Assembly: GCA_013285465.1 (NCBI GenBank)
Contig: CP053449.1
Span: forward strand, 2,566,735 to 2,630,734
Source: Pseudomonadota bacterium
Lineage (GTDB): Bacteria > Pseudomonadota > Alphaproteobacteria > Micavibrionales > CSBR16-224
Length of the DNA: 64,000 bases
Reading direction: 5' to 3'
The notes beneath the pieces are model-generated. The model did not search any database, was not told the origin of the DNA, and saw only the letters and a list, made by a program, of their open reading frames with translations. Made by a program: the position numbers and the translations under genes. Shown here in pieces: positions 24,367 through 41,868 of the stretch (positions are counted from its first letter, which is position 1; every line of letters begins with the position of its first letter).

Positions 24367-24379
24367 ACTGCCTCCTTAG

Positions 24380-25204
24380 TTATGCCGCTTCTTGGCCCTT
24401 CTGTTTCTCCGCTTTCGTGCGGCTGTGGCGGCGCAGAACTTCCCGCGCCAATTGAATATAAGCCTGCGATCCCGGGCAACGCATATCATAAACAATTGCC
24501 GGCAATCCATAGGACGGCGCCTCGGAAATACGAACATTCCGTGGAATAACCGCCTTAAACACCTTATCGCCAAAATGCGCACGCACATCTTCCGCGACCT
24601 GACCGGAAAGATTATTGCGCTTGTCATACATGGTCAGAACAATGCCCTCCAGTGACAATCTGCTGTTAAAGCTGCTGCAAACCCGCTCAATCGTGCGTAC
24701 CAGATGCGCCAGACCTTCCAGAGCGTAAAACTCGCATTGCAGCGGCACAATCACGCCGTTTGAACAAACAAGCGCGTTTAAAGTCAATAAGTTAAGCGAT
24801 GGCGGGCAATCAAATAACACATAATCAAATGCCGTCCCGTCATATTTTTCAAAGGCTTTGCGCAGCCGCGATTCGCGGTTTTTTGCGTCCACCAGCTCAA
24901 TCTCCGCACCGGACAAATGAACTGATGACGGAATCACAAACAGGCGCGGCACGCGGGTTTCAACAGCCGCCTCCGCAACGCCGCACTCTCCGAACAATAC
25001 TTCATATGTGCCGTTGACGCGGCTGGCGCGGTCAATACCGAAGCCGGTAGAGGCATTTCCCTGCGGATCAAGATCCACCAGCAGAACCCGCCGCCCGACA
25101 GCCGCCAAAGCCGTTGCAAGATTCACCGCCGTCGTCGTTTTACCGACGCCGCCTTTTTGATTTGCGATACTGATAAAATGTGTGTCTGTCTTTTTTCTTG
25201 TCAT
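24380..25204 (-). CDS. parA: chromosome partitioning ATPase ParA
   Basis: 274-aa deviant-Walker ATPase that moves ParB-parS complexes. The signature QKGGVGKTTTAVNLATALA carries the deviant Walker A lysine, DLDPQGNASTG is Walker A', and YVLFDCPPSLNLLTLNAL is Walker B. The protein lacks the N-terminal HTH of plasmid ParA, as expected for a chromosomal type. The ATG at 25204 has no strong ribosome site. A parS copy lies 49 nt before the start, between rsmG and parA, so ParB could occupy its own operon's control region. Confidence 0.97.
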   Translation of the reverse strand: MTRKKTDTHFISIANQKGGVGKTTTAVNLATALAAVGRRVLLVDLDPQGNASTGFGIDRASRVNGTYEVLFGECGVAEAAVETRVPRLFVIPSSVHLSGAEIELVDAKNRESRLRKAFEKYDGTAFDYVLFDCPPSLNLLTLNALVCSNGVIVPLQCEFYALEGLAHLVRTIERVCSSFNSRLSLEGIVLTMYDKRNNLSGQVAEDVRAHFGDKVFKAVIPRNVRISEAPSYGLPAIVYDMRCPGSQAYIQLAREVLRRHSRTKAEKQKGQEAA

Positions 25205-25252
25205 GATGGGTATTATAGATACAGGAATTTAAACCCGCATTCCAGCAGAAAA

Positions 25253-25268
25253 TGTTTCACGTGAAACA
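25253..25268. other. parS site 1
   Basis: The 16-bp palindrome TGTTTCACGTGAAACA, identical to the bacterial parS consensus. It lies in the rsmG-parA gap. Confidence 0.95.
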
Positions 25269-25270
25269 TT

Positions 25271-25882
25271 TTACAGCCGTGCGATCTCTTCCAGCACCAG
25301 CACAACGCCGTCATCACCGGTTATACTTGGCTGTTTTTTAATGGAAAATTTCCAGTTTTCCTGTGCTGCCGCAATTTCCTCCTCTGCCGTCTGGCCTTTC
25401 AGGAAAATACAGGAACCTCCCCCTTTCAAAAGCGGTGCGGCGTAATCCAGCAATTGCGGTAAAGCGGCCAAAGCACGTGCCGTCACAATTTCCGCATTCC
25501 GTACCGGTGATTCTTCGATACGACAGGCATGAACTTTAACGGGCGCATCACAGGCCCGCGCGACTTCACGCAGGAATACGGCTTTACGGATATCGGATTC
25601 GACCAGATGTATATCTTTTACACCCAAGATAGCCAAAACCAGCCCCGGAAAACCGGCGCCACTGCCGATATCGACCAATGCGCCGGTTTTTTCTTTCACA
25701 AGCGGGTAAAGCTGCGCCGAATCCAGAAAATGGCGCTGCCACATATCGGTAAGCGTATTCTTACTGACAAGATTGATACTGTTTTGCCATTTTTCAAGAA
25801 GCTCTGCATAAAGTTCCAGACGCGCGAATGTTTCACGTGAAACATCAAAACCGGCGCTGTCGCAAAATTCCTGATATTGCAT
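25271..25882 (-). CDS. rsmG: 16S rRNA (guanine-527-N7) methyltransferase RsmG
   Basis: 203 aa. An AdoMet-dependent enzyme that makes m7G527 in 16S rRNA. LVDIGSGAGFPGLVLAI is the AdoMet motif, HLVESDIRKAVFLREVAR motif II, and TARALAALPQLLDYAAPLL the family signature. The N-terminal DVSRETF codons are formed by the second parS palindrome, which constrains the protein there. It follows mnmG with 5 nt spacing, as in the conserved mnmG-rsmG-parA-parB order. Confidence 0.96.
   Translation of the reverse strand: MQYQEFCDSAGFDVSRETFARLELYAELLEKWQNSINLVSKNTLTDMWQRHFLDSAQLYPLVKEKTGALVDIGSGAGFPGLVLAILGVKDIHLVESDIRKAVFLREVARACDAPVKVHACRIEESPVRNAEIVTARALAALPQLLDYAAPLLKGGGSCIFLKGQTAEEEIAAAQENWKFSIKKQPSITGDDGVVLVLEEIARL
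25829..25844. other. parS site 2, inside rsmG
   Basis: A second perfect TGTTTCACGTGAAACA within the rsmG coding region, 576 bp from site 1. It encodes part of DVSRETF on the minus strand. A parS inside gidB/rsmG is known from other bacteria. Confidence 0.95.
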
Positions 25883-25887
25883 GGGGT

Positions 25888-27792
25888 TTACGCTGTTTTA
25901 CGGCTGTTTTTGGCGGATTTTCCGCCTTTTTTGACGTAGCGCAAAAGCGCGACCAGTGCCGCGGGGGTTACACCGGAAATGCGCCCCGCCGCCTCCAGCG
26001 TTTTCGGGCGGTGTGCGATAAATTTCAAACGGATCTCCTGCGACAATCCGCCGATGCCGTCATAATCGAGGTCATCGGGGATTTGCAGTGATGCGTCCTT
26101 GCGGAACATATCGACATCCGCCTGCTGCCGTTCAATATAGCCGGAATATTGCGCGTCAATTTCGATTTGCTCGCGAATAGCGGGGGAAATCTCTGCCAAT
26201 TCCGGCCAGATTTCCGTCAGTGTCTCAAAGCTCACATGCGGGAAACGCAACAGCTCAAAAGCGGAGCGGCGCACACCGTCCTGTGTAATATCAATCCCGC
26301 GCTGCGCCAGCGCATGCGGGGTTTCCTTCATTTCCTCGCGCATTTTCTGCTGTGCGGTCTCCAGAGCCGTTATTTTTGCGGTAAACGCCGCCGCCCTTTC
26401 CGTACTGACACAGCCGATCACAATGCCCCGCGACGTCAGACGCTGGTCGGCATTATCAGCACGTAGCAGCAAACGGTATTCGGCGCGCGAGGTAAACATA
26501 CGGTAAGGCTCCGTCACGCCCAGCGTGACCAGATCATCAATCATCACGCCTGCATAGGCTTCGGCGCGGTCAAGTGTAAAGACCTCTCCCTCGCCGGCAA
26601 CGCGGAGGGCGGCATTAATGCCTGCAATAAGGCCTTGCGCCGCCGCTTCCTCATAACCTGTGGTGCCGTTGATCTGTCCTGCCATAAACAGCCCTTCGGC
26701 TTTTTTCACCTCCAGCGTATGTTTCAATGCGCGGGGGTCAATATAATCATATTCGATGGCATAGCCATGCTGAAGAATGACGGCATTTTCCAGACCGGGA
26801 ATGGTTTTCAAAACCGCCTCTTGCACATCTGCGGGCAAGGAGGTTGAAATACCGTTCGGATAGACCGTATCATCATCAAGCCCTTCGGGTTCAAGGAAAA
26901 TCTGGTGGCGTTCCTTATCGGCAAAACGCACGACTTTATCTTCGATCGAGGGACAGTAACGCGGGCCGGAGCTTTTGATCTGGCCGGAATAAATCGGTGC
27001 GACATGCAGGTTGTCGCGGATTAGCTCATGCGTTTCAGGGCTTGTATAGGTAATGTGACAGCTGATCTGCGGCACGGTGATTTCCGTTGTCAGGAAGGAG
27101 AACGGCACAGGCGCGGGATCGGCGAATTGTTCTTCCAGCACATCCCAATTGATGGTGGTTCCATCCAAACGCGGCGGTGTGCCTGTTTTTAACCGTCCCA
27201 GCGGCAGTTCCAGCCTGTCCAGTGTTTCAGCAAGGCCGATCGCAGGCGCTTCGCCGATGCGCCCGGCCGGTGTGCGGGTCGTGCCGCGATGGATAATGCC
27301 GCGCAGGAATGTTCCCGTTGTCAGCACAACAGCTTTGCAGAAAAGCGTATCACCCGCATCTGTGACAACAGCTGTGACGCTATTTTGATCATCCAGCAGA
27401 ATATCTTCCGCCGCCGCTTCCAGTACAGCGAGATTTTCCATGTTGAAAATCATGTCCTGAATGGCGGCGCGGTAAAGTTTGCGGTCGGCTTGTGTGCGCG
27501 GCCCGCGCACAGCCGGACCTTTGCTGGCATTCAGCATACGGAACTGGATTCCCGCCTTATCTGCCGCGCGACCCATAATGCCGTCCAGCGCATCAACCTC
27601 GCGCACCAGATGCCCCTTACCCAACCCGCCAATGGCAGGATTGCAGGACATGGCACCGATCGTGTCTTTTTTATGGGTGACAAGACATGTTTTCGCGCCC
27701 ATACGTGCGGAAGCCGCCGCAGCTTCGCAACCTGCATGCCCGCCACCGATGACGATGACATCATAATCCTGTTTTGCCCGTGTTTCGGACAT
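25888..27792 (-). CDS. mnmG: tRNA U34 carboxymethylaminomethyl synthesis enzyme MnmG
   Basis: 634 aa from ATG 27792 (GGAAAG upstream; the frame extends to 27885, but the extra residues are not family-like). FAD enzyme that with MnmE installs cmnm5 at U34 of tRNAs. [14 protein letters not shown] binds [27 protein letters not shown] is the family signature, and [17 protein letters not shown] and [11 protein letters not shown] follow. The C-terminal domain has the helical MnmE/tRNA-binding part ending [21 protein letters not shown]. Its partner mnmE is 13 kb away on the other side of the putative origin. Confidence 0.97.
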
Positions 27793-27902
27793 GGCACTGT
27801 CTTTCCGATTTATTAGGGTTTCTTTGGTATTATGAATATAGAAGAGCCGGAAATTATGCAACAAAAAACTGCCGCTATCTGCCATAGCGGAATGAGGTCT
27901 TC

Positions 27903-28418
27903 ATGGATAAAACGGATAAAAAGACCCGTAACCTGACAGAGCGCCAGCTTGAAGGCGATTTCACCAGCCATGCGACGCCGTTGCGGGAATTTTCGCTGAT
28001 TTCCGATGTTTTGCGCGAATTTTTTATGAATTATACGCCGGAAGGTCTGGAAAGCTTAGCGCAGCAGCGGCTGCATGATCTGGATGTCGCCGGACAGCGC
28101 GTTATGCAGTATCATCTTGATTTTGAACTGGAAACAGTCGATATCGATATGGATAGCGATAGGCCGGAAGAAGAAAAAGCCCGTCTGGCGCAATTTTACG
28201 CCCGTAATCCGCTTTTTGCCAAGGCGCGGGAAGAGTTTCAGCTGGCCAGCAGCGCCCTCTCGGCCATTGACGGCAAAGCCGCCTTTCAGATCATCGGGCA
28301 TATTCAGGAAACCATCAATAATGTCGTGGATACGATGCGCAGCAAAAAGCAAATTGAAGCCATGCACAGAAATCCTTTCATGCCCCCTTCCCCCAACGGC
28401 AAAACACGGATACACTAA
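27903..28418 (+). CDS. conserved hypothetical protein
   Basis: 171 aa, soluble, helical and acidic, divergent from mnmG. Visible stretches: PLREFSLISDVLREFFMNYTPEGLESLAQQ, EELETVDIDMDSDRP, and FQIIGHIQETINNVVDTMRSKKQIEAMHRNP. The short C-terminal tail is Pro-rich. The weak pattern does not match a family I know. It precedes rnr by 47 nt on the same strand. Confidence 0.7.
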   Translation: MDKTDKKTRNLTERQLEGDFTSHATPLREFSLISDVLREFFMNYTPEGLESLAQQRLHDLDVAGQRVMQYHLDFELETVDIDMDSDRPEEEKARLAQFYARNPLFAKAREEFQLASSALSAIDGKAAFQIIGHIQETINNVVDTMRSKKQIEAMHRNPFMPPSPNGKTRIH

Positions 28419-28465
28419 CAAATAAGAACAATCTGCTTATCACCTTAGCCAAAGGCTTATTTCCA

Positions 28466-30760
28466 TTGTCAAAAAACCGCAAGCATTTCCCCAGCGCTGA
28501 CGATATTCTTGCTTTCGTCAAAGATAGCGGCACGCCCGCAACCAAACGCGAAATTTCCCGCGCCTTCCGCATTCAGGGGCAGGACCGCGTTGCCTTTAAA
28601 CAGCTTTTAAAACAAATGGTCGAAGACGGCATGCTGGCGCAGACTGCCGGAAAAAGCTATGCGCCGCCGGGCGGTCTGCCTGACGTAACGACAGTCAAAA
28701 TCACGGAAATCGGCGGTGACGGCGAATGGCTGGCCGTGCCGGAAAAATGGCATGGTGACGGACGTCCGCCGCTGGTGATTATGAAGCCCGGCAAGGATAA
28801 TGACCCCGTCGGCACAAAAGCGCTGGTGCGGCTGCGACCTGTGCACGGACAGAACAAGACCTATGAAGGGCGGATTATCAAACATTTCAGCCCGCATGAA
28901 CACAGCACGCATATCGTCGGCACCATTCATTTCCCGACGCCGGATGCTGCACTGTTTTTTCCCGCCGAGCGCGGCAACCCCGCCCCGCTGCCTGTTCCGA
29001 AAGAGTTTCTGGAGAAGGTAAAGGAAAACGATCTTGTTGCCGCCGTTTATACGCCGGGACGCGATATCCGTATCGTCGATGTGCTGGGACAGCAGGATGA
29101 CCCCAAGCTTTTGACTCTGATTGCCATTTATCAGGAAGGCATTCCGAATGTTTTCCCTGATGAGGTTTTAAAAGAATGTGAAGATATGTCCGTACCGGAA
29201 GTCGGCGGCGCACGCAAAGATTTGTCGCATATTTCACTGGTCACGATTGACGGCGCGGATGCGCGCGATTTTGATGATGCCGTTTTCGCCGAGCCCGATA
29301 CCGACCCGCAGAACAAGGGCGGTTGGCATATTGTTGTCGCGATTGCCGATGTTTCCTATTACGTCCGCCCCGGTACGCCGCTGAACGAACATGCGCTGGA
29401 ACGCGGCAATTCCACCTATTTCCCCGACCGTGTTGTACCGATGCTGCCGGAAAAACTGTCGAACGAGCTTTGCTCGCTGATGCCGAATGTGCCGCGCGCC
29501 TGTATGGCTGTGCATTTATGGATTGATAAACATGGCGAGCTGCAAAAATATGAATTCATCCGCGGCTTGATGAAATCAAAAGCCCGCCTGACTTATGAGC
29601 AGGTGGAAGATGCCCATAACGGCCATCCCGACGCGACGACAAAGCCGCTGATGGAAACCGTCATCAAACCGCTTTACGAGGCATTTCATGTTCTGGACAA
29701 ATCACGCACGGTGCGCGGTGCCTTGGAGCTGGATCTTCCCGAATATCAAGTGCGTCTGAACGAGGACGGAACGGTAAAAGAAATGACGCGGCGCACGCGG
29801 CTGGACAGTCATAAGCTGATCGAAGAATTTATGATTCTGGCCAATATTGCCGCTGCGCAGGCGATCGAGGATAGCGGTGTCCCCGGCATCTTCCGTATTC
29901 ACCCGCCGCCGGAATCCGGACGGCTGGCCGCCGCCAATGATTTCCTGAAATCCATCGGGCAAAGCGCGGCCAAGGCGCTGAGTCCTGTGCCAAAAGACAT
30001 TAATGCGATTTTGGAAAAAGTCAAAAACACCAAATTTTCCGAAGTCGTCAATACCATCGTGTTGCGCAGCCAGAGTCAGGCTCTTTATCATCCTGAGAAC
30101 AAAGGACATTTCGGCCTGTCGCTGACACATTACGCGCATTTTACTTCTCCCATCCGCCGTTATGCCGATCTGATCGTGCACCGCGCCTTGATCCGCATTT
30201 TTAAGCTGGGCAAAGACGGGCTGACGGATGATGAAATATCCCAGATTGAATCCATTGCCGATCACATTTCCGAGACCGAGCGCCGTTCCATGGGTGCGGA
30301 GCGCAAATCCGTTGACCGTTTCGCCGCGCTGTATCTGAAAGACCGCACCGGTGCGGAATTCCGCGCCACCATCGGCGGGATGAGCCGTGCGGGATTATTT
30401 GTGACATTGACGGAAACAGGCTCGGACGGGTTTATTCCCTGCCGGCTTTTGCCCAATGATTACTATATGCATGATGAAAAACGTCATATGCTGGTCGGGC
30501 GTAAAACAAAATTCTCTTTCCAGCTTTGCGCGCCTGTGAAGGTCAAGCTGAAGGAAATCGATGTCATGGGCGGCAGTATGATTTTCACGCTGGTGGAATA
30601 TGACGGCCGCGAGATGCCCGAACCGCCGCCCGATGGCGGTATGCGCAAGCCTTATAGACAGGCGCGGCGGAAAAAGCTTAACGATGACGGCAAAAAACGC
30701 GACAAGCGCGATTTTCAGAAAAAGCACAAAAAGCCGAAAGGTAAAAAGCGGCAGAAATAA
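28466..30760 (+). CDS. rnr: ribonuclease R
   Basis: 764 aa from TTG 28466 with AAAGG 8-10 nt upstream. Processive 3'-5' exoribonuclease for structured RNA. The N-terminal winged-helix region has KREISRAFRIQGQDR, followed by cold-shock domains. The RNB catalytic domain has TIDGADARDFDDAVFAE with the metal-binding Asp cluster, and HYAHFTSPIRRYADLIVHRAL closes the active site. An S1 domain (GMSRAGLFVTLTETGSDGFIP) and a Lys/Arg-rich tail follow, as in RNase R rather than RNase II. Confidence 0.96.
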   Translation: MSKNRKHFPSADDILAFVKDSGTPATKREISRAFRIQGQDRVAFKQLLKQMVEDGMLAQTAGKSYAPPGGLPDVTTVKITEIGGDGEWLAVPEKWHGDGRPPLVIMKPGKDNDPVGTKALVRLRPVHGQNKTYEGRIIKHFSPHEHSTHIVGTIHFPTPDAALFFPAERGNPAPLPVPKEFLEKVKENDLVAAVYTPGRDIRIVDVLGQQDDPKLLTLIAIYQEGIPNVFPDEVLKECEDMSVPEVGGARKDLSHISLVTIDGADARDFDDAVFAEPDTDPQNKGGWHIVVAIADVSYYVRPGTPLNEHALERGNSTYFPDRVVPMLPEKLSNELCSLMPNVPRACMAVHLWIDKHGELQKYEFIRGLMKSKARLTYEQVEDAHNGHPDATTKPLMETVIKPLYEAFHVLDKSRTVRGALELDLPEYQVRLNEDGTVKEMTRRTRLDSHKLIEEFMILANIAAAQAIEDSGVPGIFRIHPPPESGRLAAANDFLKSIGQSAAKALSPVPKDINAILEKVKNTKFSEVVNTIVLRSQSQALYHPENKGHFGLSLTHYAHFTSPIRRYADLIVHRALIRIFKLGKDGLTDDEISQIESIADHISETERRSMGAERKSVDRFAALYLKDRTGAEFRATIGGMSRAGLFVTLTETGSDGFIPCRLLPNDYYMHDEKRHMLVGRKTKFSFQLCAPVKVKLKEIDVMGGSMIFTLVEYDGREMPEPPPDGGMRKPYRQARRKKLNDDGKKRDKRDFQKKHKKPKGKKRQK

Positions 30761-30763
30761 GCG

Positions 30764-31141
30764 CTAAAGCGGCTGGCGGATCAGCAGATTGACCCAGACA
30801 CAGCCGCCGGCAACCATTAATGTTGCCGGAATAATCGTCCAATGCGGTTTCATGCCGAAAAACACTACCGTCATCAGCACGGACAGAATAATCATATTGA
30901 AGATGTTGACCGGCGTCACAAGGCCGGGATCAAACCATTGATAGCTTTTCGCCACCATGAAATTGCCGAAAAAGAAAAACAGCGGCAGTGACAGCAACAT
31001 GCGCGTCAGCTCCGTTGTTTTTGCGTAGATACCTGCCAATGTCGTGGACATCAGATGGCCGCTGGTAAAGAAAATTCCCGCAAGAATGGCGGCATGGGCC
31101 AGAATGGAAATCGGCAAAAGCTTGAAAAACTGCAACAGCAT
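30764..31141 (-). CDS. small four-helix membrane protein
   Basis: 125 aa, almost entirely four membrane helices: SILAHAAILAGIFFTSGHL, MLLSLPLFFFFGNFMVAKSY, FNMIILSVLMTVVFFGM and IIPATLMVAGGCVWVNLLI. The size and layout resemble half-size drug/metabolite-superfamily or small EamA-like proteins, but no diagnostic residue (such as the SMR glutamate) is visible. It lies 16 nt after rho on the same strand and converges with rnr, so it probably rides on the rho transcript. Function unknown. Confidence 0.75.
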   Translation of the reverse strand: MLLQFFKLLPISILAHAAILAGIFFTSGHLMSTTLAGIYAKTTELTRMLLSLPLFFFFGNFMVAKSYQWFDPGLVTPVNIFNMIILSVLMTVVFFGMKPHWTIIPATLMVAGGCVWVNLLIRQPL

Positions 31142-31157
31142 TTTGCCGGAAACACCC

Positions 31158-32462
31158 CTACTGGTTCATTGCCTGGAAGAAATCGTCATTGCATTTGGTA
31201 TCCCGCATCTTGTCGACAAGGAATTCTACAGCATCGACGGTGCCCATCGGGTTGAGAATACGGCGCAGAACCCACATTTTCGACAATGTGTCCTGATCGA
31301 CCAGCAATTCCTCTTTCCGTGTACCGGATTTTTGAATATCAATGGCCGGGAAGACACGTTTGTCGGAGATTTTGCGGTCAAGCACGATCTCGGAGTTACC
31401 TGTTCCCTTGAACTCCTCAAAGATGACCTCATCCATACGGCTTCCGGTATCGATCAATGCGGTGGCGATAATCGTCAGCGAGCCGCCCTGTTCAATATTC
31501 CGTGCCGCGCCGAAGAAACGTTTCGGGCGTTGCAGGGCATTGGCATCAACACCACCGGTCAGAACCTTACCGGAGCTGGGGACGACGGTATTATAAGCAC
31601 GCGCCAGACGCGTGATGGAATCAAGCAGAATGACGACATCGCGTTTATGTTCGACGAGGCGTTTTGCTTTTTCAAGAACCATTTCCGCAACCTGAACATG
31701 GCGGGCGGCGGGTTCGTCAAATGTCGAGGAAATAACCTCACCCTTGACCGAACGGGCCATATCCGTCACCTCTTCAGGGCGCTCGTCAATCAGCAGAACG
31801 ATCAGATAAGCTTCGGGATGGTTGGTTTCAACCGAATGCGCGATATTTTGCAGCATCACGGTTTTACCTGTCCGCGGCGGCGCAACGATAAGTGCACGCT
31901 GTCCGAAACCGAGCGGCGAGACAAGCTCGATCACCCGCTGCAGCTGTATCTGCGGCTGATGGCCGCCCTTGCTGTTGGTTTTCGGCATACCGATTGTCGG
32001 CAGGGTCGGGTTTTCCAGCTCCAGCGTGATTTTTCTTTCCGGATAGAGCGGGGTCAGATTGTCAAAATTGATGCGGTGTTTCAGCGTATCGGGTTTCGAG
32101 AAATTGACCGAGCTGACTTTCAGCAGGGCAAAATAGCGCTCGTTATCTTTCGGGGCGCGGATTTCACCTTCAATCGTGTCACCTGTGCGCAACCCGAAGC
32201 GTTTGATCTGGCTGGGCGATACGTAAATATCGTCAGGACCGGGAAGATAGTTTTCTTCCGGAGAGCGCAGAAAACCGAAGCCGTCTTGCAAAATTTCGAG
32301 AACGCCGTTGCCGACGATGGATTCATCCTTATCTGCCAGCCGCTTTAAAATAGCAAACATGATTTCCTGTTTGCGCATAGAGCCGGCATTTTCAACGCCC
32401 ATCTCTTCCGCATAGGTTAAAAGGTCGGCAGGTGATTTGGATTTCAGTTCTTGGAGATTCAT
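31158..32462 (-). CDS. rho: transcription termination factor Rho
   Basis: 434 aa. Hexameric RNA-dependent ATPase that terminates transcripts at C-rich rut sites. The N-terminal [20 protein letters not shown] domain is followed by the RNA-binding OB fold ([23 protein letters not shown]). The ATPase core has [18 protein letters not shown] (Walker A), [13 protein letters not shown] (Walker B) and the RNA-binding Q and R loops ([20 protein letters not shown]). Length is normal. A leader of about 170 nt with a C-rich, G-poor tract before the start suggests autogenous control. Confidence 0.97.
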
Positions 32463-32642
32463 GAAATATTACCGTTGATGATGTTGGGGATGGGTTTATA
32501 ACGTCGGTTGATACAAAGCGGGTTCAAAAGATATGTCTTTTTCCCTGATACGCGGCCAATAATGAGGCCGAAACGCAAAACTCCTAGATTTCCTATTATT
32601 TATAAGGGGGAATTGTTGTCGTTATTCAGATGTAACATGTTT

Positions 32643-32671
32643 TTTCTAGCCGATTCCCACCCCCCTGTCAA
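32643..32671 (-). promoter_or_regulatory. probable rho promoter
   Basis: On the minus strand a consensus TTGACA (32671-32666) and TAGAAA (32648-32643) are 17 nt apart, giving a rho leader of about 170-180 nt. The C-rich, G-poor part of the leader lies at about 32463-32515. Confidence 0.55.
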
Positions 32672-32698
32672 CATAAACTATGCCAAAAGGAACAGGGG

Positions 32699-33775
32699 CT
32701 ATTTTCGGCAAAGCGTCCCGGGCAGGGGAATAACGCCCTCGGCGGCCAGCCATGACAGCCCCGCCTGCAGGCATATTGACTGCACCCAGCGCAGACGCGG
32801 CAGCTCCTGCGGTACGGATCGCCACGCATTATCCGCAAAATATCCCGTGACCGTCGCGACAACGGAGAGGACATCCTCCCGCGGATATTGATGTCCCGAG
32901 ACCTCTTCATAATATTTGATAATGCTCTGCGGCGGAATGCCGCTTTCCGCCGCCACGCATTGTGCAAACAGCACAACATCCAGCAGCACCTGCCCCCAGC
33001 AGGTATCCGTCCAATCCACAATAACGGCGCGGAATTCGGGGTTAAACAGGATATTGTCCGAGCGCAGATCGAAATGCACAACGCCTTCCGGCCCCGTCAT
33101 TGCGCGCATACGGCTTTGCAGGCGTATAAGTTCGGGCAAATGTGTCTCCAGCCAGTGCCGCGCCGCATCCGCATCTTCAAACAGCGCCGCAAAATGCTGC
33201 TGGCGGTTTGAATCATCTTCTCTTTCAAAGCGTTTCCACAATCTTTCGCCAAGAAAAAAATCACTGACATGATTGCTTTCCCGTCCGTCAGGCAAATCCG
33301 CAACATCGCCGCGCATAACACTGCTGTGCAGTCGCCAGAGCAGATCAACCACCGCCTGCGTTTTTGCCACGGTCCAGGGTAAGGCGGTTTGGCCGTCCAC
33401 CATATCCCAGATTCCCAGCCGCCAGTCATCTTCATCTCCGACGGAGATACTGCCGTGAAAACGCGGCGCCAGCTCCTGCAAAAATTTGAGTGTTTTATAG
33501 GCGTTGATTTCTTGCTGCAGCGCCTTAGCGCCGTGCGCCGTCTGGCCGGGATGGGATCCTTTTATAAAATATTTCCCGCCATCCGCCGCGGTCGCACGGA
33601 AACAGGCCGACGGGCTGTAGCCGCCCCAGGCAATGTCCGCGTTTAAGATTTTTCCGGTGATTTTTTCGATTTCCGACAACACTTCCGGCGGCAAATCCGC
33701 CCATTCCGGGCGGGCCTCTCTTTCCGGCGGCTCGGGCAACGCCGGATGAAATGCGGGGGAAGACTCCGTCGTCAT
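32699..33775 (-). CDS. aminoglycoside-phosphotransferase-like kinase
   Basis: 358 aa of the APH/choline-kinase-like fold. The ATP-binding Lys is in KYFIKGSHPGQ, the catalytic loop is GVVHFDLRSDNILFN, and the metal-binding Asp is in AVIVDWTDTCWG. The substrate lobe does not match a known resistance enzyme, and many chromosomal members phosphorylate small metabolites, so antibiotic resistance should not be assumed. Its start overlaps the stop of the 211-aa gene (TAATG), so the two are coupled. On this side it is the second gene from the putative origin. Confidence 0.85.
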   Translation of the reverse strand: MTTESSPAFHPALPEPPEREARPEWADLPPEVLSEIEKITGKILNADIAWGGYSPSACFRATAADGGKYFIKGSHPGQTAHGAKALQQEINAYKTLKFLQELAPRFHGSISVGDEDDWRLGIWDMVDGQTALPWTVAKTQAVVDLLWRLHSSVMRGDVADLPDGRESNHVSDFFLGERLWKRFEREDDSNRQQHFAALFEDADAARHWLETHLPELIRLQSRMRAMTGPEGVVHFDLRSDNILFNPEFRAVIVDWTDTCWGQVLLDVVLFAQCVAAESGIPPQSIIKYYEEVSGHQYPREDVLSVVATVTGYFADNAWRSVPQELPRLRWVQSICLQAGLSWLAAEGVIPLPGTLCRK

Positions 33776-34410
33776 TACTCGGCAGCCATATCCTGTACGA
33801 TCGGCATGCCTTCGATTTTCAGCTCTTCATCCGACAGATTGACCATCCCGTCGGGCGTGACATGCACGGTGGTTTTGAACAGCGAATCCTTGAACAGCAT
33901 AAAAGCTTCAGCCGTATAGCCGCCGTCTTCATCCTTGGACAGAATTTTGACCGGATGCACCATTTCCTGAATAACCTTGCGTCCCTGTGCCGGCGGTTCG
34001 GTACGCCAGTGAATTTCATCCACGCTTTCGATCACGATAAAACGCCCGTGACGACCGCGCACATAGGTAAAGAAGAAACGGATATAATCCGCCACATTGC
34101 TGTCGCTTAATTTGACGGGCGCTTTCTCATTCACGTCATAGATGGTCTGGTTCGTCCAGTTGACGACATTGACATCATCTTTTTTATAAATGGCATATTT
34201 ACGCACGGAAGGAACAGCGGATAAATCCGTCATTTCCAGAAAGGAATAATCCGGGTAAAAGGGCAAACGGCGCTTGCGGATCGTTGTTGAATCCGGATTG
34301 AACGGGATCGGTTCAATATGCGGATTGATCTCGTCAAGGAAAGCCGGAACATCCGGTGTATCCAGTTTTTCCCATTCAACTTGCGGCATTGCGTTGGCTC
34401 CTGCTGTCAT
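33775..34410 (-). CDS. conserved hypothetical next to the putative origin
   Basis: 211 aa from ATG 34410 (GAGGA upstream) or 204 aa from ATG 34389, which has an equally good GGAG. Soluble, with no signal peptide. Strand-rich core: VRKYAIYKKDDVNVVNWTNQTIYDV, VADYIRFFFTYVRGRHGRFIVIESVDEI, and AFMLFKDSLFKTTVHVTPDGMVNLSDEELKIEG. The last block looks like a repeated ligand-binding half with an ER/IE pair. I do not recognise the family. Coupled to the APH-like gene downstream and divergent from hemE across the 431-bp putative origin. Confidence 0.8.
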   Translation of the reverse strand: MTAGANAMPQVEWEKLDTPDVPAFLDEINPHIEPIPFNPDSTTIRKRRLPFYPDYSFLEMTDLSAVPSVRKYAIYKKDDVNVVNWTNQTIYDVNEKAPVKLSDSNVADYIRFFFTYVRGRHGRFIVIESVDEIHWRTEPPAQGRKVIQEMVHPVKILSKDEDGGYTAEAFMLFKDSLFKTTVHVTPDGMVNLSDEELKIEGMPIVQDMAAE

Positions 34411-34841
34411 TTCCGTTCATCCTCAAAACTGTAGCATATTCCCGTCCGATTCCTCCACAGGCTTTGTGGAAAAAACTGTATGAGATGTGCACAACTGTAC
34501 AAAACCCGTCCGGCGTCATTTTTTTTCCCCGTATCTATACGGCCTTATCCGTTTATTTTTACAGGCAGCATGGTTTCTGCACAGCTTGTGGAAAAACCGC
34601 TTTTTCTTAAATAAAACCGTCGCTTGACCTTTTCTTGCCCTGTGGGCTTTCTTGTGAAAAAGTCTTTATGCACAGGATTCACAGCACCAACCTACAAAAA
34701 CAATATTCTTTTTCTTTTTAATTGTTATTTGTTTTTATTTGGACAGCGCGTGAAAAAATGGCATCTTCTAGTCATTCCTGATCGGTGTTCGGTCAAGAGG
34801 GATGAGTTTAGACGAAAAGCGGTAAAGAAAGGCTTAAAGCG
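34411..34841. other. putative chromosomal replication origin (oriC)
   Basis: A 431-bp gap between divergent genes, next to hemE as in Caulobacter. One 9-mer matches the DnaA-box consensus TTATNCACA exactly (34666-34674). Five match at 8 of 9 positions: TGTGGAAAA at 34465-34473, TGTGCACAA at 34486-34494, TTCTGCACA at 34575-34583, TGTGGAAAA at 34587-34595 and TGTGAAAAA at 34653-34661. A weaker one is at 34451. Positions 34691-34740 are 84% A+T, a fitting unwinding element on the hemE side of the boxes. parS/parAB lie 9 kb away. G/C strand bias changes sign around here. Confidence 0.82.
34691..34740. other. A+T-rich DNA-unwinding element candidate
   Basis: Only 8 of 50 bases are G or C, with long T runs on the plus strand. 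It directly follows the exact DnaA box at 34666-34674. Confidence 0.65.
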
Positions 34842-35906
34842 GTGACACAGGCAGTCAAAAAAAATGCGGACGGACAGAAGAAGCCCCTGCTGGCGGTGCT
34901 TGCGGGGGAAAAAGCGGCGCGTCCGCCTTTCTGGTTTATGCGGCAGGCCGGGCGGTATCTGCCGGAATACCGTGCTTTGCGCAAAGATGCGGGCAGTTTT
35001 CTGGATTTGTGCTATACGCCGGAACTGGCGGCGGAAGTCACCGTACAACCGCTGCGCCGTTACGGTATGGATGCGGCGATTCTATTCTCCGATATTCTGG
35101 TTGTACCGCATGCTTTGGGGCAGGAAGTGGCTTTTCAGGAAGGCAAAGGGCCTGTTCTGGGCGCATTGGATATCGGTGTGCTGGATGTTGACAATCTCCA
35201 TGACAAGGCAGCGCCTGTTTATGAAACCGTGCGCAAAACCCGGGCATTGTTGCGGGAAGATCCCGCATTGGACGACCAGGCGCTGATCGGTTTTGCCGGT
35301 GCACCCTGGACTGTTGCAACCTATATGGTTGAAGGCGGCGGCAGCAAGGAATTCATGAAAATCCGTGAAATGATGTACCGGAGCCCGGATCAGCTGGATG
35401 CGCTGATCGCTGTCTTGACCGAAGCAACCATAGCCTATCTGTCACGGCAGATTGAGGCCGGCGCAGAGGCCATACAGATATTCGACAGCTGGGCAGGCAT
35501 TTTGCCCGAAGATATGTTTGAGAAATATGTGATTGCGCCGACAGCGGAAATTGTCGCGGTTTTGCGGCAGGATTATCCGGACGTGCCGGTCATCGGCTTC
35601 CCGAAGGGTGCAGGACTGCTGTATAAAAACTATGCAGAGCAGACCGGCGTGACGGCTTTGGGGCTGGATTATACTTTACCGCCGGAATGGGCTGCGCAGG
35701 AGCTGCAAAGCATTTGTCCCGTGCAGGGTTGTCTTGATCCTGCCCTGTTGCTGGCCGGAGGCGATGTTATGCTGGCGGCGGCGCAGCGCATTCTGGATGT
35801 GTTTTCCGGCGGGTCGTTTATTTTTAATCTTGGTCACGGCATTAACAAAGAGACGAAACCGGAAACGGTGGCGCAGCTTTCCGCTTTTCTAAAAGGGTCG
35901 ACATAA
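34842..35906 (+). CDS. hemE: uroporphyrinogen decarboxylase
   Basis: 354 aa from GTG 34842 with AAAGG upstream. Cytoplasmic enzyme that removes four acetate carboxyls from uroporphyrinogen III to give coproporphyrinogen [23 protein letters not shown] is the N-terminal signature, with the Arg residues that bind substrate. The second signature [19 protein letters not shown] and [10 protein letters not shown] follow, and [12 protein letters not shown] closes the barrel. First gene of the hemE-hemH-hemJ run. Confidence 0.97.
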
Positions 35907-35910
35907 AATA

Positions 35911-36993
35911 ATGGCACGCAGACTGGCAGTTGTGTTGATGAATCTTGGCGGCCCTTTGGGGCGCAAAGACATTTATCCGTTTCTGCTGAATTTTTTTTCC
36001 GACAAGAATATCATCGGCGCGCCCTATCCTTTGCGGCGCATGATCGCAAAGCTGATTGCTTCACGCCGGTCAAAAGGTGCCGCGCTGGAAGCCTATCGCG
36101 AGCTGGGATATAAATCACCTTTGTTGAAAAATACGCGGGCGCAGCAAGAGGCGCTGGAAGCCGCTATAAAGAAAAACCTGCCGCAGGGTTTTGGCGCGGT
36201 GCGTGTTTTTACGACCATGCGCTACTGGCATCCGCGCAGCGGTAAGGTTGTGCTGGATGTGAAGGATTACAACCCCTCACATGTTGTTTTACTGCCGCTT
36301 TACCCGCAATATTCCACCACAACGGTGAAATCCTCGATTGAAGACTGGCAACAAGCCGCCGGTGAACACGGCCTTGTTTGCAATACGACGCCGGTTTGTT
36401 GCTGGCCGTTTCAAAACGGTTTTATCGCCGCCTCGGCCGACCGTATCCGCAGCGCCTGGGAGAAAGCGCGCCGCCTGAATCCGCATATTGAGTATCGTGT
36501 GTTATTTTCCGCACACGGGTTGCCGGAGAAAGTCGTAAAAAAAGGCGACCCCTATCAATGGCAATGTGAGGAATCGGCGGCAAAAATCGCAGCGGCAACG
36601 GGGATTGAAAATATTGACTGGGAAATTTGTTATCAAAGTCGCGTCGGGCCGATGAAATGGATTACGCCGTCGACGGATGAGGCTTTGAATAAGGCGGCGC
36701 AGGACGGTAAAGGCATTCTGGTCTATCCGCATGCTTTTGTCTCGGAACATGTGGAAACGCTGGTTGAAATTGAAAATGAATACCGCGAAACTGCGCGGCA
36801 TCTGGGTATTCCGGATTTTGTCCGCGTCGCAACGGCGGGAACGCATCCGCTTTTTATCGACGGATTGGCGGATCTTGTGCATTATGTGCTGGATCAGCGC
36901 CCGCAACCCGCACTGTATTGCGGACATTCGCGCGGGCGGATCTGTCCGGGTACATATAAAAACTGTGCCTATCAAATCTTGAAAAAAGGATAA
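35911..36993 (+). CDS. hemH: ferrochelatase with Cys-rich C-terminus
   Basis: 360 aa, four nt after hemE. Inserts ferrous iron into protoporphyrin IX. VVLMNLGGPLG starts the fold, and VLFSAHGLPEKVV carries the catalytic His. QSRVGPMKWITPSTDEAL and PHAFVSEHVETLVEIENEY carry the acidic ligands. The last 25 residues contain three cysteines (ALYCGHSRGRICPG and NCAYQI), with more Cys in the body (VCNTTPVCC). Caulobacter ferrochelatase carries a [2Fe-2S] cluster held by C-terminal cysteines plus one internal Cys. A similar cluster is possible here, but the spacing is not identical to published cases. Confidence 0.95.
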   Translation: MARRLAVVLMNLGGPLGRKDIYPFLLNFFSDKNIIGAPYPLRRMIAKLIASRRSKGAALEAYRELGYKSPLLKNTRAQQEALEAAIKKNLPQGFGAVRVFTTMRYWHPRSGKVVLDVKDYNPSHVVLLPLYPQYSTTTVKSSIEDWQQAAGEHGLVCNTTPVCCWPFQNGFIAASADRIRSAWEKARRLNPHIEYRVLFSAHGLPEKVVKKGDPYQWQCEESAAKIAAATGIENIDWEICYQSRVGPMKWITPSTDEALNKAAQDGKGILVYPHAFVSEHVETLVEIENEYRETARHLGIPDFVRVATAGTHPLFIDGLADLVHYVLDQRPQPALYCGHSRGRICPGTYKNCAYQILKKG

Positions 36994-36999
36994 AAAAAT

Positions 37000-37452
37000 A
37001 TGCAGGATTTTTTGCTGGGAATCTACGACTGGTTAAGAGCGCTTCATATCATCGCGGTTATCAGCTGGATGGCGGGAATGCTGTATCTGCCGCGTCTTTA
37101 TGTTTATCACTGCGCAGCGGAAACGGGATCGGAGCTGTCAGAAACGCTGAAAATCATGGAACGCCGCTTGCTGCGCCTGATTATCAATCCGGCGATGATC
37201 GTCACATGGCTGCTGGGGCTGAGTATGCTGTACAGCAATCCGTCATTGCTGCAGAACCCGTGGATGCATGTCAAACTGACCTGTCTGGTGCTGATGCAGC
37301 TTGTACACGCCTTTTTTGCCAGAAGCCGCAGGAATTTTGACGCGGATAAAAATACCCGCTCACAAAAATTCTACCGCTTTGCCAATGAAGCACCGACGGT
37401 CTTGATGATTATTATCGTCATTATGGTGATTGTCCGCCCGTTTTCCGGCTGA
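37000..37452 (+). CDS. hemJ: protoporphyrinogen oxidase HemJ
   Basis: 150-aa four-helix inner-membrane protein (UPF0093). Converts protoporphyrinogen IX to protoporphyrin IX, the step between HemE products and HemH. The conserved His is in LRALHIIAVISWMAGMLYLPRLYVYH, followed by MERRLLRLIINPAMIVTWLLGL. WMHVKLTCLVLMQLVHAFF carries the conserved Lys and the second His. Six nt after hemH; completes the terminal heme operon, apart from coproporphyrinogen oxidase, which is not here. Confidence 0.93.
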   Translation: MQDFLLGIYDWLRALHIIAVISWMAGMLYLPRLYVYHCAAETGSELSETLKIMERRLLRLIINPAMIVTWLLGLSMLYSNPSLLQNPWMHVKLTCLVLMQLVHAFFARSRRNFDADKNTRSQKFYRFANEAPTVLMIIIVIMVIVRPFSG

Positions 37453-37457
37453 GTTTT

Positions 37458-39251
37458 TTAAAGCCAGGCAGGGCGTTCCGGCATAAGCAGTGCCAGGGCA
37501 AAGAAAATCACCAGCGTCATAATTGCTGCCAGCATGCCCGACATGCCGCCGGGGGGGAGCGCCTGCTTTCCGGCATCAGCGCTTTGAAACGACATGACTT
37601 TCTTCAAGGCACCGGCACCGAAAAAACGCACGGTGAAATAAGCCATGACGGCAAGTCCGCCCGCCAGTGTGAAATCATAGATCATCTGTTCATTCGCGGG
37701 GGTTTCCGGTGTGAGCGCCATACCGCGGAGGCCGGCAAAAAACCACGCGCCCGCCAATGCGGCGGCGATTGTTGTGCCGACGGCGGCGCCGACTTTGCGC
37801 GGCTTATCCGTCAATGATTTGATGGCCTGATCTGCAAAGACAACACAGGCTCTCGCATATTTGTCGGATAATCCGCGCGGATAAAGGGTTTTGACATGTT
37901 GCAGCATTTTCTTTTTCGTCATACTGCCGGTATGGGAGAAAACATCTTTGACCAGCCGCAATTTCATCGCGGTTTTCATCAGGGCTTCGGTCGCCATCGG
38001 GCCTTTGACGATTTTTTGCAGGGCGGCAATGCCGGATTTTACCTGCGGGTCGAGGAAATCATCAATATGCAGAATACAGGATTGATATCCGGCAAGCTGC
38101 GCATCATAGCGTTTGCCGCCGATGGAGAACTCCGCCGTGCCGTATGGAATTTCAACATGGTAATGCAGTTCCGCCTGCGGCGGCGTGTGTGCAGCTGCTT
38201 GCGTCGCAGGCTGTCCCGCCGTTTGCGGTGATGTTGTTGCGGGTGTTGCCGCTGCTGCTGCCGCTGCCGTAAGGGCATCAAGACTTTCAGGATCGGGCAT
38301 GACCATGGAAATTGCCGCATGCTGCTCCGTCGCCAGCTTGGTTTCGCCGCCCGTTGCCTCCAGCAGGTCGCGGATTTCCGCAGGCATATTGGCGGTACTG
38401 ATGCTCATATTCGTGAAAGCTTCAAAAGCGACGCTGTTGTGAAGACTGACATAGCCGGTTTTGTTGCATTCCGTGCAGCCGACATATTTCGTGCCGCGGC
38501 ATTTCGGACATTGTATATATTTCAAGCCGCGACATTCACGGCAAATAGCGTCTTTTTTACCGAAACATTCCGGACATTTTATTTTTGTGCCGCCCGCACC
38601 CGGCAGTTCGCCCAGTCCCAGACAGCGCAGGCAGTCGGTTTTACCGAAACCCTTGCATTCGATACAGGGGGTCTGGCCTTTGCCGTGGCAGTAACCGCAT
38701 TTATCCTGTTTTTTGCCTTTGCATTTCGGGCATTTTTCGTGACAGGTATAGTCTGCGTTTAATTCTTTCAGGGCGAATTTTTGTTGGCTTCCCCAGCCCA
38801 GCAGCGGTGCTTTTTTCAAATATTCACCGGCCAGAATGACGGTTTTGGGATTGCTTAAATTCTGTGTTTTTAAAGCCGCAATTTTTTCCTGCATCTCCAG
38901 CTTGGAGTTACAAAAAGTGCCTGTTTTGTCTTGTCCGGCGGTGCGGCTTTCGATGATTGTGGGCGTTAGTTGCAAAGTAATCGGGATATCAAAAGCAAAA
39001 ACATCCTGTTTTTTCTTCGCGACCCGGACATCGGTGCCGGAAAGTCCGTTACCGGTAACCCAGTCCGTGATATGTTTTGCGGCGGTCTCGGCCAGATCAG
39101 GCACGCCCTTTTCAGGGGGATAGGGTTCTTTTCCCCAGACATAAGACGGCGGCACGGCGGCACGGACAGGCGGCGGTGTCTGCGTTTGTGAAGGCGGCGG
39201 TGTTGCAGCCCCCTTCTTTGTCTGCGTTGCTGTGTCGTCTGTTTCCGGCAA
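37458..39251 (-). CDS. membrane protein with eight CXXC pairs (DnaJ-like zinc-finger array, no J domain)
   Basis: 597 aa. Residues 1-50 are Pro/Thr-rich and probably disordered. Residues 170-262 hold eight CXXC pairs (C174/177, 185/188, 196/199, 207/210, 226/229, 237/240, 248/251, 259/262), several as CXXCXGXG like DnaJ, which has only four. An Ala/Pro/Thr-rich linker follows near 325-355. The C-terminal part has three membrane helices (VGAAVGTTIAAALAGAWFFAG, FTLAGGLAVMAYFTVRFF, GMLAAIMTLVIFFALALL). No HPD motif or signal peptide is seen. It probably binds zinc in the cytoplasm while tethered to the inner membrane. Converges with hemJ, 5 nt apart. Function unknown. Confidence 0.88.
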   Translation of the reverse strand: MPETDDTATQTKKGAATPPPSQTQTPPPVRAAVPPSYVWGKEPYPPEKGVPDLAETAAKHITDWVTGNGLSGTDVRVAKKKQDVFAFDIPITLQLTPTIIESRTAGQDKTGTFCNSKLEMQEKIAALKTQNLSNPKTVILAGEYLKKAPLLGWGSQQKFALKELNADYTCHEKCPKCKGKKQDKCGYCHGKGQTPCIECKGFGKTDCLRCLGLGELPGAGGTKIKCPECFGKKDAICRECRGLKYIQCPKCRGTKYVGCTECNKTGYVSLHNSVAFEAFTNMSISTANMPAEIRDLLEATGGETKLATEQHAAISMVMPDPESLDALTAAAAAAATPATTSPQTAGQPATQAAAHTPPQAELHYHVEIPYGTAEFSIGGKRYDAQLAGYQSCILHIDDFLDPQVKSGIAALQKIVKGPMATEALMKTAMKLRLVKDVFSHTGSMTKKKMLQHVKTLYPRGLSDKYARACVVFADQAIKSLTDKPRKVGAAVGTTIAAALAGAWFFAGLRGMALTPETPANEQMIYDFTLAGGLAVMAYFTVRFFGAGALKKVMSFQSADAGKQALPPGGMSGMLAAIMTLVIFFALALLMPERPAWL

Positions 39252-39286
39252 GGAAAAATATCCTTAAAACAGTTTATTAAAAAATA

Positions 39287-40018
39287 TTACGCTTCGGAGG
39301 CTTTGCGTTGCTCCGCCGTTAAAAGATTACGCGCGAGGAAATCCGCGGTGCGGACATTGGCTTCGCGGGCGGCATTCTCGTCAAAATGTTCGCCGCCGAT
39401 CCGTGCGAAAGCGTGGTCAACGCCCTGATAATGGAAAATTTCGATATGGTCATAAGCCGAAAGTGTTTTTATAATTTTTTCCTGCGCTTCCGGCGGGACG
39501 AATTGATCTTTTTCCGCGATATGCATCAGTAGCGGCTTTTTAATCTTTTCAGCGCCGTCCAGCGCATCCTGAATACCGACGCCGTAATAGCTGACATTGC
39601 AATCCGCATCGGAATTTACCGCCGTCAGATAGGCCAGTTTGCCGCCAAGACAAAAGCCGATCGTGCCGACTTTGCCGTTTGTGCCGGGATAGCCGCGCAT
39701 ATGATTGATGGTGGCGATCAGATCCTCCACGCCTTTTTCTTCGTCAAAACCTTGATAAAGTTCGAAAGCGCGCGCCCATTCCTCCTCCGTATGGTCGGTC
39801 AGTTGAATGCCGGGCTCCTGCCGCCAGAACAGATCGGGGCAAACCGCGACATAGCCCTGATAGGCCAGATTGTCGCAAATCGCGCGCATGACGCCGTTCA
39901 CACCGAAAATTTCCTGAATGACGATAACAACCGGTGCGCCGTCCTCCGCTTCTTTTTGTCCGGAGAGATAGGCTGAAAATGTACCGCCGTCGCTGCTTTT
40001 GATCGTGATGTCGGTCAT
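39287..40018 (-). CDS. dienelactone hydrolase family protein
   Basis: 243 aa from ATG 40018; an upstream TTG at 40036 overlaps the GAGGAG ribosome site and is not the start. Alpha/beta hydrolase. The nucleophile elbow is GTIGFCLGGKLAY (Cys instead of Ser, typical of this family), the Asp is in HIAEKDQFVPPEA, and the His in QGVDHAFAR. PVVIVIQEIFGVN near the N-terminus contains the conserved Glu that modulates the Cys. Members hydrolyse dienelactones in aromatic breakdown, but most chromosomal copies are of unknown substrate. Monocistronic by position. Confidence 0.92.
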   Translation of the reverse strand: MTDITIKSSDGGTFSAYLSGQKEAEDGAPVVIVIQEIFGVNGVMRAICDNLAYQGYVAVCPDLFWRQEPGIQLTDHTEEEWARAFELYQGFDEEKGVEDLIATINHMRGYPGTNGKVGTIGFCLGGKLAYLTAVNSDADCNVSYYGVGIQDALDGAEKIKKPLLMHIAEKDQFVPPEAQEKIIKTLSAYDHIEIFHYQGVDHAFARIGGEHFDENAAREANVRTADFLARNLLTAEQRKASEA

Positions 40019-40129
40019 ATGTGCAAAGCTCCTCAAGCCTTATAGAAACCGTGAAGGTTTTCTGATAAACTCCCGTAAAACTATATCGCAACAAAATCAG
40101 GCTGTATAGGCCGGAGCATAAAGAAATTC

Positions 40130-40552
40130 ATGGAGATGACGGAGTCTTTTTACAAAGCGCATGTTTTTTGCTGCAATAATGAACGGCCTGCAGGCCATAT
40201 ACGCGGCTGTTGCCGTGAAAAAGGCGGTGTGTCGTTGCAGAATTACATGAAAGTGCGGGCAAAAGAGCTCGGCATCGAGAAAACGCGCATCAACAAGGCC
40301 GGTTGTCTTGACCGCTGCGAGCTGGGGCCTGTGATGGTGATCTATCCCGAAGGGGTCTGGTACCATTACGCCACGCGCGAGGATGTGGACGAGATTCTTG
40401 AAACACATTTGCTTGGCGGAAAAATTGTCGAAAGGTTGCAGCTGGAAAACGACCAGACGGAACTGACACCTGCGCAGGCAGAGTCTTTGGCTTGTGTCAT
40501 GCAATGTATGCCGCCCAAAACAGAGCCGGAAGAAACGGGGAAAGAAGTATGA
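40130..40552 (+). CDS. thioredoxin-like [2Fe-2S] ferredoxin
   Basis: 140 aa of the thioredoxin-fold (2Fe-2S) ferredoxin family. Cysteines C14/C15, C27/C28, C59 and C63 match the family pattern HVFxC...ERPAGHIRGCC and NKAGCLDRCELGPVMVIYPEGVWY, whose middle Cys residues bind the cluster. An acidic C-terminal tail has two more Cys (SLACVMQCMPP). The stop overlaps the mnmE start by ATGA, so it is coupled to tRNA-modification enzyme synthesis. A redox role beside MnmE/MnmG is inference. Confidence 0.88.
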   Translation: MEMTESFYKAHVFCCNNERPAGHIRGCCREKGGVSLQNYMKVRAKELGIEKTRINKAGCLDRCELGPVMVIYPEGVWYHYATREDVDEILETHLLGGKIVERLQLENDQTELTPAQAESLACVMQCMPPKTEPEETGKEV

Positions 40553-41868
40553 CGATTTTTGCCCTGTCCTCCCCGCCCGGCAAAGGCGGTGTGGCCGTCT
40601 TCCGCGTATCCGGCCCAGCGGCTTTAAACAGCTATCACGCCCTGACAAAACGGAAAAAATCCCTGCCGCCGCGCAAGGCGACCTATTGCCGTATGATGCA
40701 TCCTGTCAGCGGCGATGTGATTGACCGCGGTCTGGCGGTTTATTTTCAGGCACCCGCCAGTTTCACCGGCGAAGATGTGGTGGAATATTATACCCATGGC
40801 GGTACGGCAGGTGTGGCGGCAATGCTGGCGGCGCTGGGAGCCTGTGAAGGGCTGCGCCCCGCGGAAGCCGGAGAATTTACCAAATCGGCAGTCTTGAACG
40901 GCAAGCTTGACCTGACCGAGGCCGAGGCTGTCGGCGATATGATTAATGCCGAAACCGAAATCCAGCATCAACTGGCCGCCGCACAATATGAAGGCAGCCT
41001 GAAACAGCTTTATGACGGTTGGACGGCGCGGCTGGTGCAGATGCTGGCCTATCAGGAGGCGGAAATCGAATTCCCTGACGAGGATATGCCTGACGGTATC
41101 GCGGAAGAACTGCGGCCGCAAATTGCGGAATTGCTGGCCGATATGCGCGCGCATCTGGATGATGCCAGAAAAGGTGAAAGGCTGCGTGAGGGCCTGAAAA
41201 TTGTGATACTGGGCCCACCGAATGCCGGAAAATCAAGCCTGCTGAATGCGCTGGCCAAACGTGATGTGGCAATTGTGTCCGAAACGGCGGGGACGACCCG
41301 CGACGTGATTGAAGCGCATCTCAATCTGGGCGGTTATGCGGTGACGCTGACGGATACGGCAGGGCTGCGCGGCGAGACGCAGGATGCGATTGAAAAAGAA
41401 GGTATGGCACGGGCGCGCAGCCATGCGGCGGAGGCGGATTTGAAGGTGTTTTTATTCGATGCGGCAGAGGGGTTTGATAAGGCGTTTTTTAAAGAGATTG
41501 ATGTGCAAACGCTGCTGGTAGCCAATAAAACCGATGCGGCGGAGAATGTGAAACTTCCTGAAGGGGTGTTGCCGCTTTCCGTGAAAACCGGGGACGGGCT
41601 GACATTCTTCCTGAAACGGCTGACGGATGAGCTGGCGCAGCGTTGGGCGCTGCCGAAAGATCATGCGCCGCTGCTGACGCGGCAGCGTCACCGCGATACG
41701 CTGGAAGAAAGCGCCGCGGCGCTGGAACAGTCACTGGCGGCGGAATTGCCCGAGCTGGCAGCGGAGGATTTACGGCTGGCGCTGCGTGCATTGGGCAGGC
41801 TGACAGGCCGCGTCGATGTCGAGGCTTTGCTCGACGTTATTTTCCGCGATTTCTGTATCGGGAAGTGA
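40549..41868 (+). CDS. mnmE: tRNA modification GTPase MnmE
   Basis: 439 aa from ATG 40549, overlapping the ferredoxin stop; the frame opens earlier but MTIFALSSPPGKGG is the family N-terminus. Potassium-activated GTPase that with MnmG modifies U34. The folate-binding N-domain has GEFTKSAVLNGKLDLTEAEAVGDMI. The G domain inserted in a helical region has GPPNAGKSSLLN (G1), TRD (G2), DTAGLR (G3) and NKTD (G4). The C-terminal FCIGK carries the invariant catalytic-pathway Cys. Confidence 0.97.
   Translation: MTIFALSSPPGKGGVAVFRVSGPAALNSYHALTKRKKSLPPRKATYCRMMHPVSGDVIDRGLAVYFQAPASFTGEDVVEYYTHGGTAGVAAMLAALGACEGLRPAEAGEFTKSAVLNGKLDLTEAEAVGDMINAETEIQHQLAAAQYEGSLKQLYDGWTARLVQMLAYQEAEIEFPDEDMPDGIAEELRPQIAELLADMRAHLDDARKGERLREGLKIVILGPPNAGKSSLLNALAKRDVAIVSETAGTTRDVIEAHLNLGGYAVTLTDTAGLRGETQDAIEKEGMARARSHAAEADLKVFLFDAAEGFDKAFFKEIDVQTLLVANKTDAAENVKLPEGVLPLSVKTGDGLTFFLKRLTDELAQRWALPKDHAPLLTRQRHRDTLEESAAALEQSLAAELPELAAEDLRLALRALGRLTGRVDVEALLDVIFRDFCIGK

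Follow-up and report, generated by a model that had tools for sequence, protein, structure and literature searches.

The 431-bp gap between two divergent genes at 34411-34841 (contig coordinates 2,601,145-2,601,575) raises the question of whether it is here that the chromosome of this alphaproteobacterium begins its replication. The window—the whole stretch of 64,000 nucleotides that was analysed—covers positions 2,566,735-2,630,734 of a single 2,673,443-bp contig. A replication origin had been proposed for the gap in a first-pass annotation, and this reading is now supported by the strand asymmetry of the replicon, by a switch at the same locus in the complete genome of a relative (G045) and by a conserved sequence core. 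Based on the location of the skew minimum, its independence of the coding strand, a box cluster beyond chance and a core conserved in both the order and the class, it appears that the gap is the chromosomal oriC, with a probability of about 96%. The origin located at hemE represents an already known kind, to which the gap adds another member. The features concerned are collected in Table 1.

Table 1. Features of the candidate origin and its surroundings (positions in the window)
Feature	Position	Strand	Basis
Intergenic region with the candidate chromosomal origin	34411-34841		Box cluster, A+T tract, skew minimum
211-aa conserved protein without assigned function, left flank	33775-34410	-	Relatives across the order
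hemE, uroporphyrinogen decarboxylase, right flank	34842-35906	+	Pfam URO-D, E = 7.4e-114
GANTC (CcrM) site in GATTCCTCCACA	34448-34452	+	Motif scan
Outer DnaA-box-like sites TTTTCCACA (34465-34473) and TTGTGCACA (34486-34494)	34465-34494	-	One mismatch each to TTATNCACA
Inverted DnaA-box-like pair, TTCTGCACA (+, 34575-34583) and TTTTCCACA (-, 34587-34595)	34575-34595		Box scan
DnaA-box-like site TTTTTCACA	34653-34661	-	Box scan
Core DnaA box 1, TTATGCACA	34666-34674	+	Exact to TTATNCACA; top order-profile match in the window
Core DnaA box 2, GGATTCACA, abutting box 1	34675-34683	+	Conserved NNA[CT]NCACA position in the order profile; sequence read directly
CcrM site GATTC within core box 2	34676-34680	+	Motif scan
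Spacer and degenerate DnaA-trio stretch GCACCAACCTACAAAA with one CTA triplet	34684-34699	+	Profile, trio scan
A+T-rich tract, presumed DNA unwinding element	34689-34745		42/50 A/T; skew minimum 34,714 inside
Two perfect parS sites TGTTTCACGTGAAACA (25253-25268, 25829-25844), beside and in rsmG, adjoining parA/parB	25253-25844		

Strand asymmetry and gene order around the gap

The skew of the whole replicon was followed in forty 12-kb samples spaced evenly round the contig and in the window, together about 20% of the genome. The cumulative minimum had been expected at the gap rather than at dnaA, and it is indeed interpolated at ~2,601,224 (~34,490 in the window), the maximum being found at ~1,301,281 (~1.301 Mb) vs the antipode of the candidate at 1,264,679 (1.265 Mb). 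Starting at the candidate and passing the zero point of the contig, the skew stays positive as far as ~1.28 Mb, apart from one slightly negative sample at 735 kb; from ~1.34 Mb onwards it is negative until the candidate is reached again. Within the window, the cumulative curve bottoms out at position 34,714, which belongs to the A+T-rich tract, it being understood that skew alone cannot locate an origin to base-pair precision. The switch at the gap, which the first-pass annotation had read from hand counts on genes of both strands, holds for the entire window, (G-C)/(G+C) being -0.082 in the left 34.5 kb and +0.059 in the right 29.3 kb. The skew of the third codon positions, taken on the plus strand, agrees with it, reaching -0.19 and -0.16 in the left genes of the two strands and +0.12 and +0.14 in the right ones; since it follows the side in genes of both orientations, the switch is an effect of replication and not of gene orientation. 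It should be pointed out that mnmG, rnr and rho (25888-32462, i.e. 2-9 kb left of the switch) exhibit a near-zero third-position skew within the negative arm, which would fit their recent move to the left of the origin.

Concerning the relatives, the skew rises from lower to higher values at hemE in most of their hemE loci. The record of the complete relative G045 (2,458,610 bp) starts at the hemE locus, the core being ~90 bp from the first base, and its skew switches sign at this locus and at ~1.2-1.3 Mb; G045 and G046 are presumably the two sequenced chromosomes of Micavibrio aeruginosavorus.

The gap lies directly upstream of hemE, as in hemE-type origins of alphaproteobacteria, and the assignment of the right flank was borne out by the Pfam match. 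The left neighbour, originally described as a conserved unknown, likewise fits this description: 120 of the 142 genomes of the order encode a relative of the 211-aa protein at E ≤ 1e-30, and searches of Pfam, NCBIfam and PDB folds yielded no match for this protein (best PDB E = 0.08), on which grounds the idea of a known regulator was dropped. Its gene is mostly situated beside hemE in the relatives whose flank was read, the exception being G001, the flank of which shows no hemE. Two weaker paralogues of the protein are encoded elsewhere in the own genome. Directly behind the gene on the left flank, there is a gene of an APH-family phosphotransferase (32699-33775, minus strand), found in the same position in the window's family and in several genomes of the family f6.

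With the hemE of the window as query, alphaproteobacterial loci were retrieved, several of them named Micavibrio, and in many such loci the genes hemE-hemH-hemJ-rho-(...)-mnmE-mnmG-rsmG-parA all occupy one side. The window (23404-41868) has hemE, hemH, hemJ and mnmE to the right of the origin and rho, mnmG, rsmG, parA and parB to the left, all of them pointing away from it; this split of the run is what inversions around the origin would be expected to give. In the order relative L045, rho is still on the right of the origin. In the relatives from Minwuia and Kordiimonadales (L060, L072, L074, L076), rho is likewise on the left, at a distance of ~6.8 kb from hemE, and points away from it, and the swap of rho across the origin may have happened more than once. 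The parS sites, previously placed 9 kb from the gap, are 8.6-9.4 kb to the left of the boxes and core; they are the only two in the genome even if up to 2 mismatches are allowed, and the pair is the centromere of the same origin domain.

DnaA boxes, the conserved core and competing explanations

The initial count of one exact and five 8-of-9 boxes within about 210 bp was reproduced. Against TTATNCACA, the exact 9-mer is at 34666-34674 (plus strand) and those with one mismatch start at 34465, 34486, 34587 and 34653 on the minus strand and at 34575 on the plus strand, all six thus falling in 34465-34674, i.e. 210 bp. The exact match hinges on any base being allowed at position five; against the strict E. 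coli consensus TTATCCACA, the gap contains no exact and three one-mismatch matches. In 3000 shuffles of the 431-bp gap preserving dinucleotides, such 9-mers numbered 0.39 on average and 3 at most, six never being reached, so the cluster goes beyond chance, as expected of an origin. Among the 250-bp stretches of the window that lie outside the gap, none holds more than two boxes; the uniqueness of the cluster was judged on the 64 kb of the window together with ~480 kb sampled from the own genome. As for the congeners, the outer box TTTTCCACA at 34465-34473 is retained in both of them and the inverted pair in the 97% congener L125. The boxes are adjoined by an A+T-rich stretch, a feature of hemE-type origins: the 50-bp tract with 84% A+T reported at the outset corresponds to the best 50 bp (42/50, with starts 34689-34696), equalled in one other place of the 64 kb.

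An earlier scan for DnaA-trios with loose boxes returned scattered matches of low quality, and a profile was used instead. It is 34 bp long and was trained on the gaps between hemE and the 211-aa gene in the order (~60 gaps, 59 sites entered); the window's own family is excluded from it, the two members offered having scored below the threshold. Its consensus, ttATCCCCg..ac.CACaGGcCCtac.ac, describes a directly adjoining pair of DnaA boxes, then a G+C spacer and a repeat of the CTAC type, and the core is in most cases located 75-130 bp before hemE across the order. Applied to the 64-kb window, the profile has its best match at 34666 on the plus strand (23.7 bits, vs 9.4 for the runner-up), and in 483 kb of other sequence from the own genome the best value is 12.6. 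Of 71 loci from other alphaproteobacteria, 52 have their best match on the strand of hemE and no more than 600 bp upstream of this gene, whereas an estimate from the sequence lengths predicts about one. Judged by these sequence comparisons, the conserved core common to the order and the class consists of the boxes at 34666-34683, which border the A+T-rich tract.

The boxes could also belong to a divergent promoter through which DnaA controls hemE and the 211-aa gene, with the origin some kilobases away, for example at mnmG/parS. The divergent genes do leave a promoter region in the gap, DnaA has a role in transcriptional regulation as well in Caulobacter (PMC4468827), and the skew lacks base-pair precision; however, the in-window minimum falls in the A+T tract beside the boxes, no other 250 bp of the 64 kb carries a comparable cluster, and the layout of core and A+T tract is that of an origin, recurring where the skew switches at hemE in other alphaproteobacteria, which leaves this explanation quite improbable. 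Both neighbours of the gap are transcribed away from it, as would suit a skew switch produced by gene orientation instead of replication, but this is refuted by the third-position skew, the sign of which goes with the side and not with the coding strand, and such an origin of the switch is next to impossible. Practically the same has to be said about an origin at dnaA. Origins linked to dnaA are common in bacteria at large, but here the gene is at 654 kb, ~730 kb from the gap and not adjacent to it, midway along the arm of positive skew, where there is no switch, and the 3.5 kb around it are devoid of the core motif (best profile score 1.6).

If the gap is the origin, DnaA would, in line with established DnaA biology, occupy both the weak to moderate boxes arrayed over 34465-34661 and the abutting pair at the core (34666-34683), the outer ones presumably tuning its assembly. 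A DnaA filament would then extend from the core over the adjoining strand and melt the A+T tract (34689-34745) to the right; the helicase would be loaded there and replication would proceed bidirectionally with two diverging forks. The new origin regions would subsequently be drawn apart by ParB bound to the pair of parS sites 9 kb further left.

Comparison with known origins

The Cori of Caulobacter crescentus is placed between hemE and COG1806, with the origin of Rickettsia prowazekii located similarly (PMC1914354). The analogy with these two bacteria, put forward in the first-pass annotation, stands as far as the hemE flank is concerned and fails for the left neighbour, which is not COG1806, and for the CtrA site. 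The window shares with both the position directly upstream of hemE, the A+T-richer gap of ~400 bp and the presence of several weak DnaA boxes (PMC1914354); moreover, hemE-hemH-hemJ lead away from the gap, and parS/parAB as well as mnmG are nearby, as in the Caulobacter/Rickettsia type. COG1806 (PF03618) is not beside the gap, being found solely at 811 kb, although this arrangement is not universal. Unlike in these comparison systems, dnaA is far from the gap, and the second base of the boxes is T (TTTTCCACA, TTATGCACA) and not the substitution of the Caulobacter G-boxes, core box 2 excepted. The gap contains no TTAA-N7-TTAA CtrA site, which is a feature of Caulobacter and not a universal one: just 3 of 64 origins of the order carry it, this scarcity agreeing with the published remark that most other origins in alphaproteobacteria show no CtrA sites (PMC4468827). 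Nor does either strand of the gap match the IHF consensus, though weak sites may remain; an IHF site is listed for Cori and Rickettsia and need not be universal. The predicted origins of Wolbachia, Ehrlichia and Anaplasma have hemE on one side and COG1253 (CBS domain) on the other (PMC1914354). The window resembles them in combining a hemE flank with a non-COG1806 gene, and differs in that the latter belongs to a 211-aa family without database relatives and is not COG1253.

Concerning the core itself, the basal unwinding system (BUS) described for Bacillus subtilis and further bacteria consists of tandem DnaA boxes, a short G+C-containing spacer, DnaA-trios and A+T-rich DNA (PMC8287927). The tandem boxes at 34666-34683 similarly abut a spacer and an A+T stretch at the presumed melting site, and many relatives carry canonical CTACTACTA trios; in contrast to the BUS, the trios are degenerate in the window's own genus, a single CTA being left in the window. 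The strict rule calls for an uninterrupted run of three or more DnaA-trios (NAN on the bound strand) no further than 16 bp from a box (PMC8287927); 31 of 63 aligned cores qualify, and the longest run within this distance in the window is one. From its sequence, the core of the window probably works like a BUS, though without the trio feature that defines it.

GANTC sites in origins of the order

The Caulobacter origin holds several GANTC sites, and the loss of ccrM left a DNA-content profile similar to that of the wild type (PMC3973325). Both GcrA and CcrM are encoded in the own genome, and ccrM was found in 131 of the 142 genomes of the order. In the gap of the window alone, GANTC is not significantly enriched (2 sites vs 1.1 expected). 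The 64 origin gaps of the order, however, contain 268 sites vs 84 by shuffles (3.2-fold), these counts coming from related, non-independent sequences. The density is 10.3 per kb in the gaps of the order vs 1.4 in the own genome, 1.8 in G045 and 2.3-3.4 in other non-coding stretches, part of the excess being the known ~1.5-fold intergenic one together with sites already noted in Caulobacter origins. Clusters are seen upstream of hemE, for example, in L189, L190, L188 and L164, and the G104 type of origin has 11 sites. The sites are located on the DnaA-box side of the core and are nearly absent from the A+T side, and in the 59 sequences they peak 50-75 bp (56 sites) and ~175-200 bp (38 sites) before the core. 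In 70 other alphaproteobacteria, the 500 bp upstream of hemE have 5.8 GANTC per kb vs 1.8. A fixed composite GANTC-NTN-CACA was rejected as a general rule, since it occurs in 11 of 62 gaps only, and ccrM loss was rejected as the cause of the few GANTC sites in the genus g34, most of which has ccrM.

It is tentatively suggested that hemE origins of the order—and, more weakly, of other alphaproteobacteria—carry a positioned cluster of CcrM sites, often with one in core box 2, the hemimethylation of which after fork passage might gate re-initiation as a GANTC counterpart of Dam/SeqA; this proposal is doubtful rather than likely. The oriC of E. coli carries a GATC cluster (Dam/SeqA), and there, as across the order, methylation sites crowd among the DnaA boxes, whereas here the methylase is CcrM (GANTC) and the window itself has just two sites. 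To our knowledge, no SeqA-like reader of GANTC has been described.

An origin is thus assigned for a little-studied, Micavibrio-related alphaproteobacterium, and the class-wide profile of box, box, spacer and trio upstream of hemE can be used to locate origins in unfinished genomes. If the GANTC cluster is functional, DNA methylation at the level of the origin would become testable in alphaproteobacteria.
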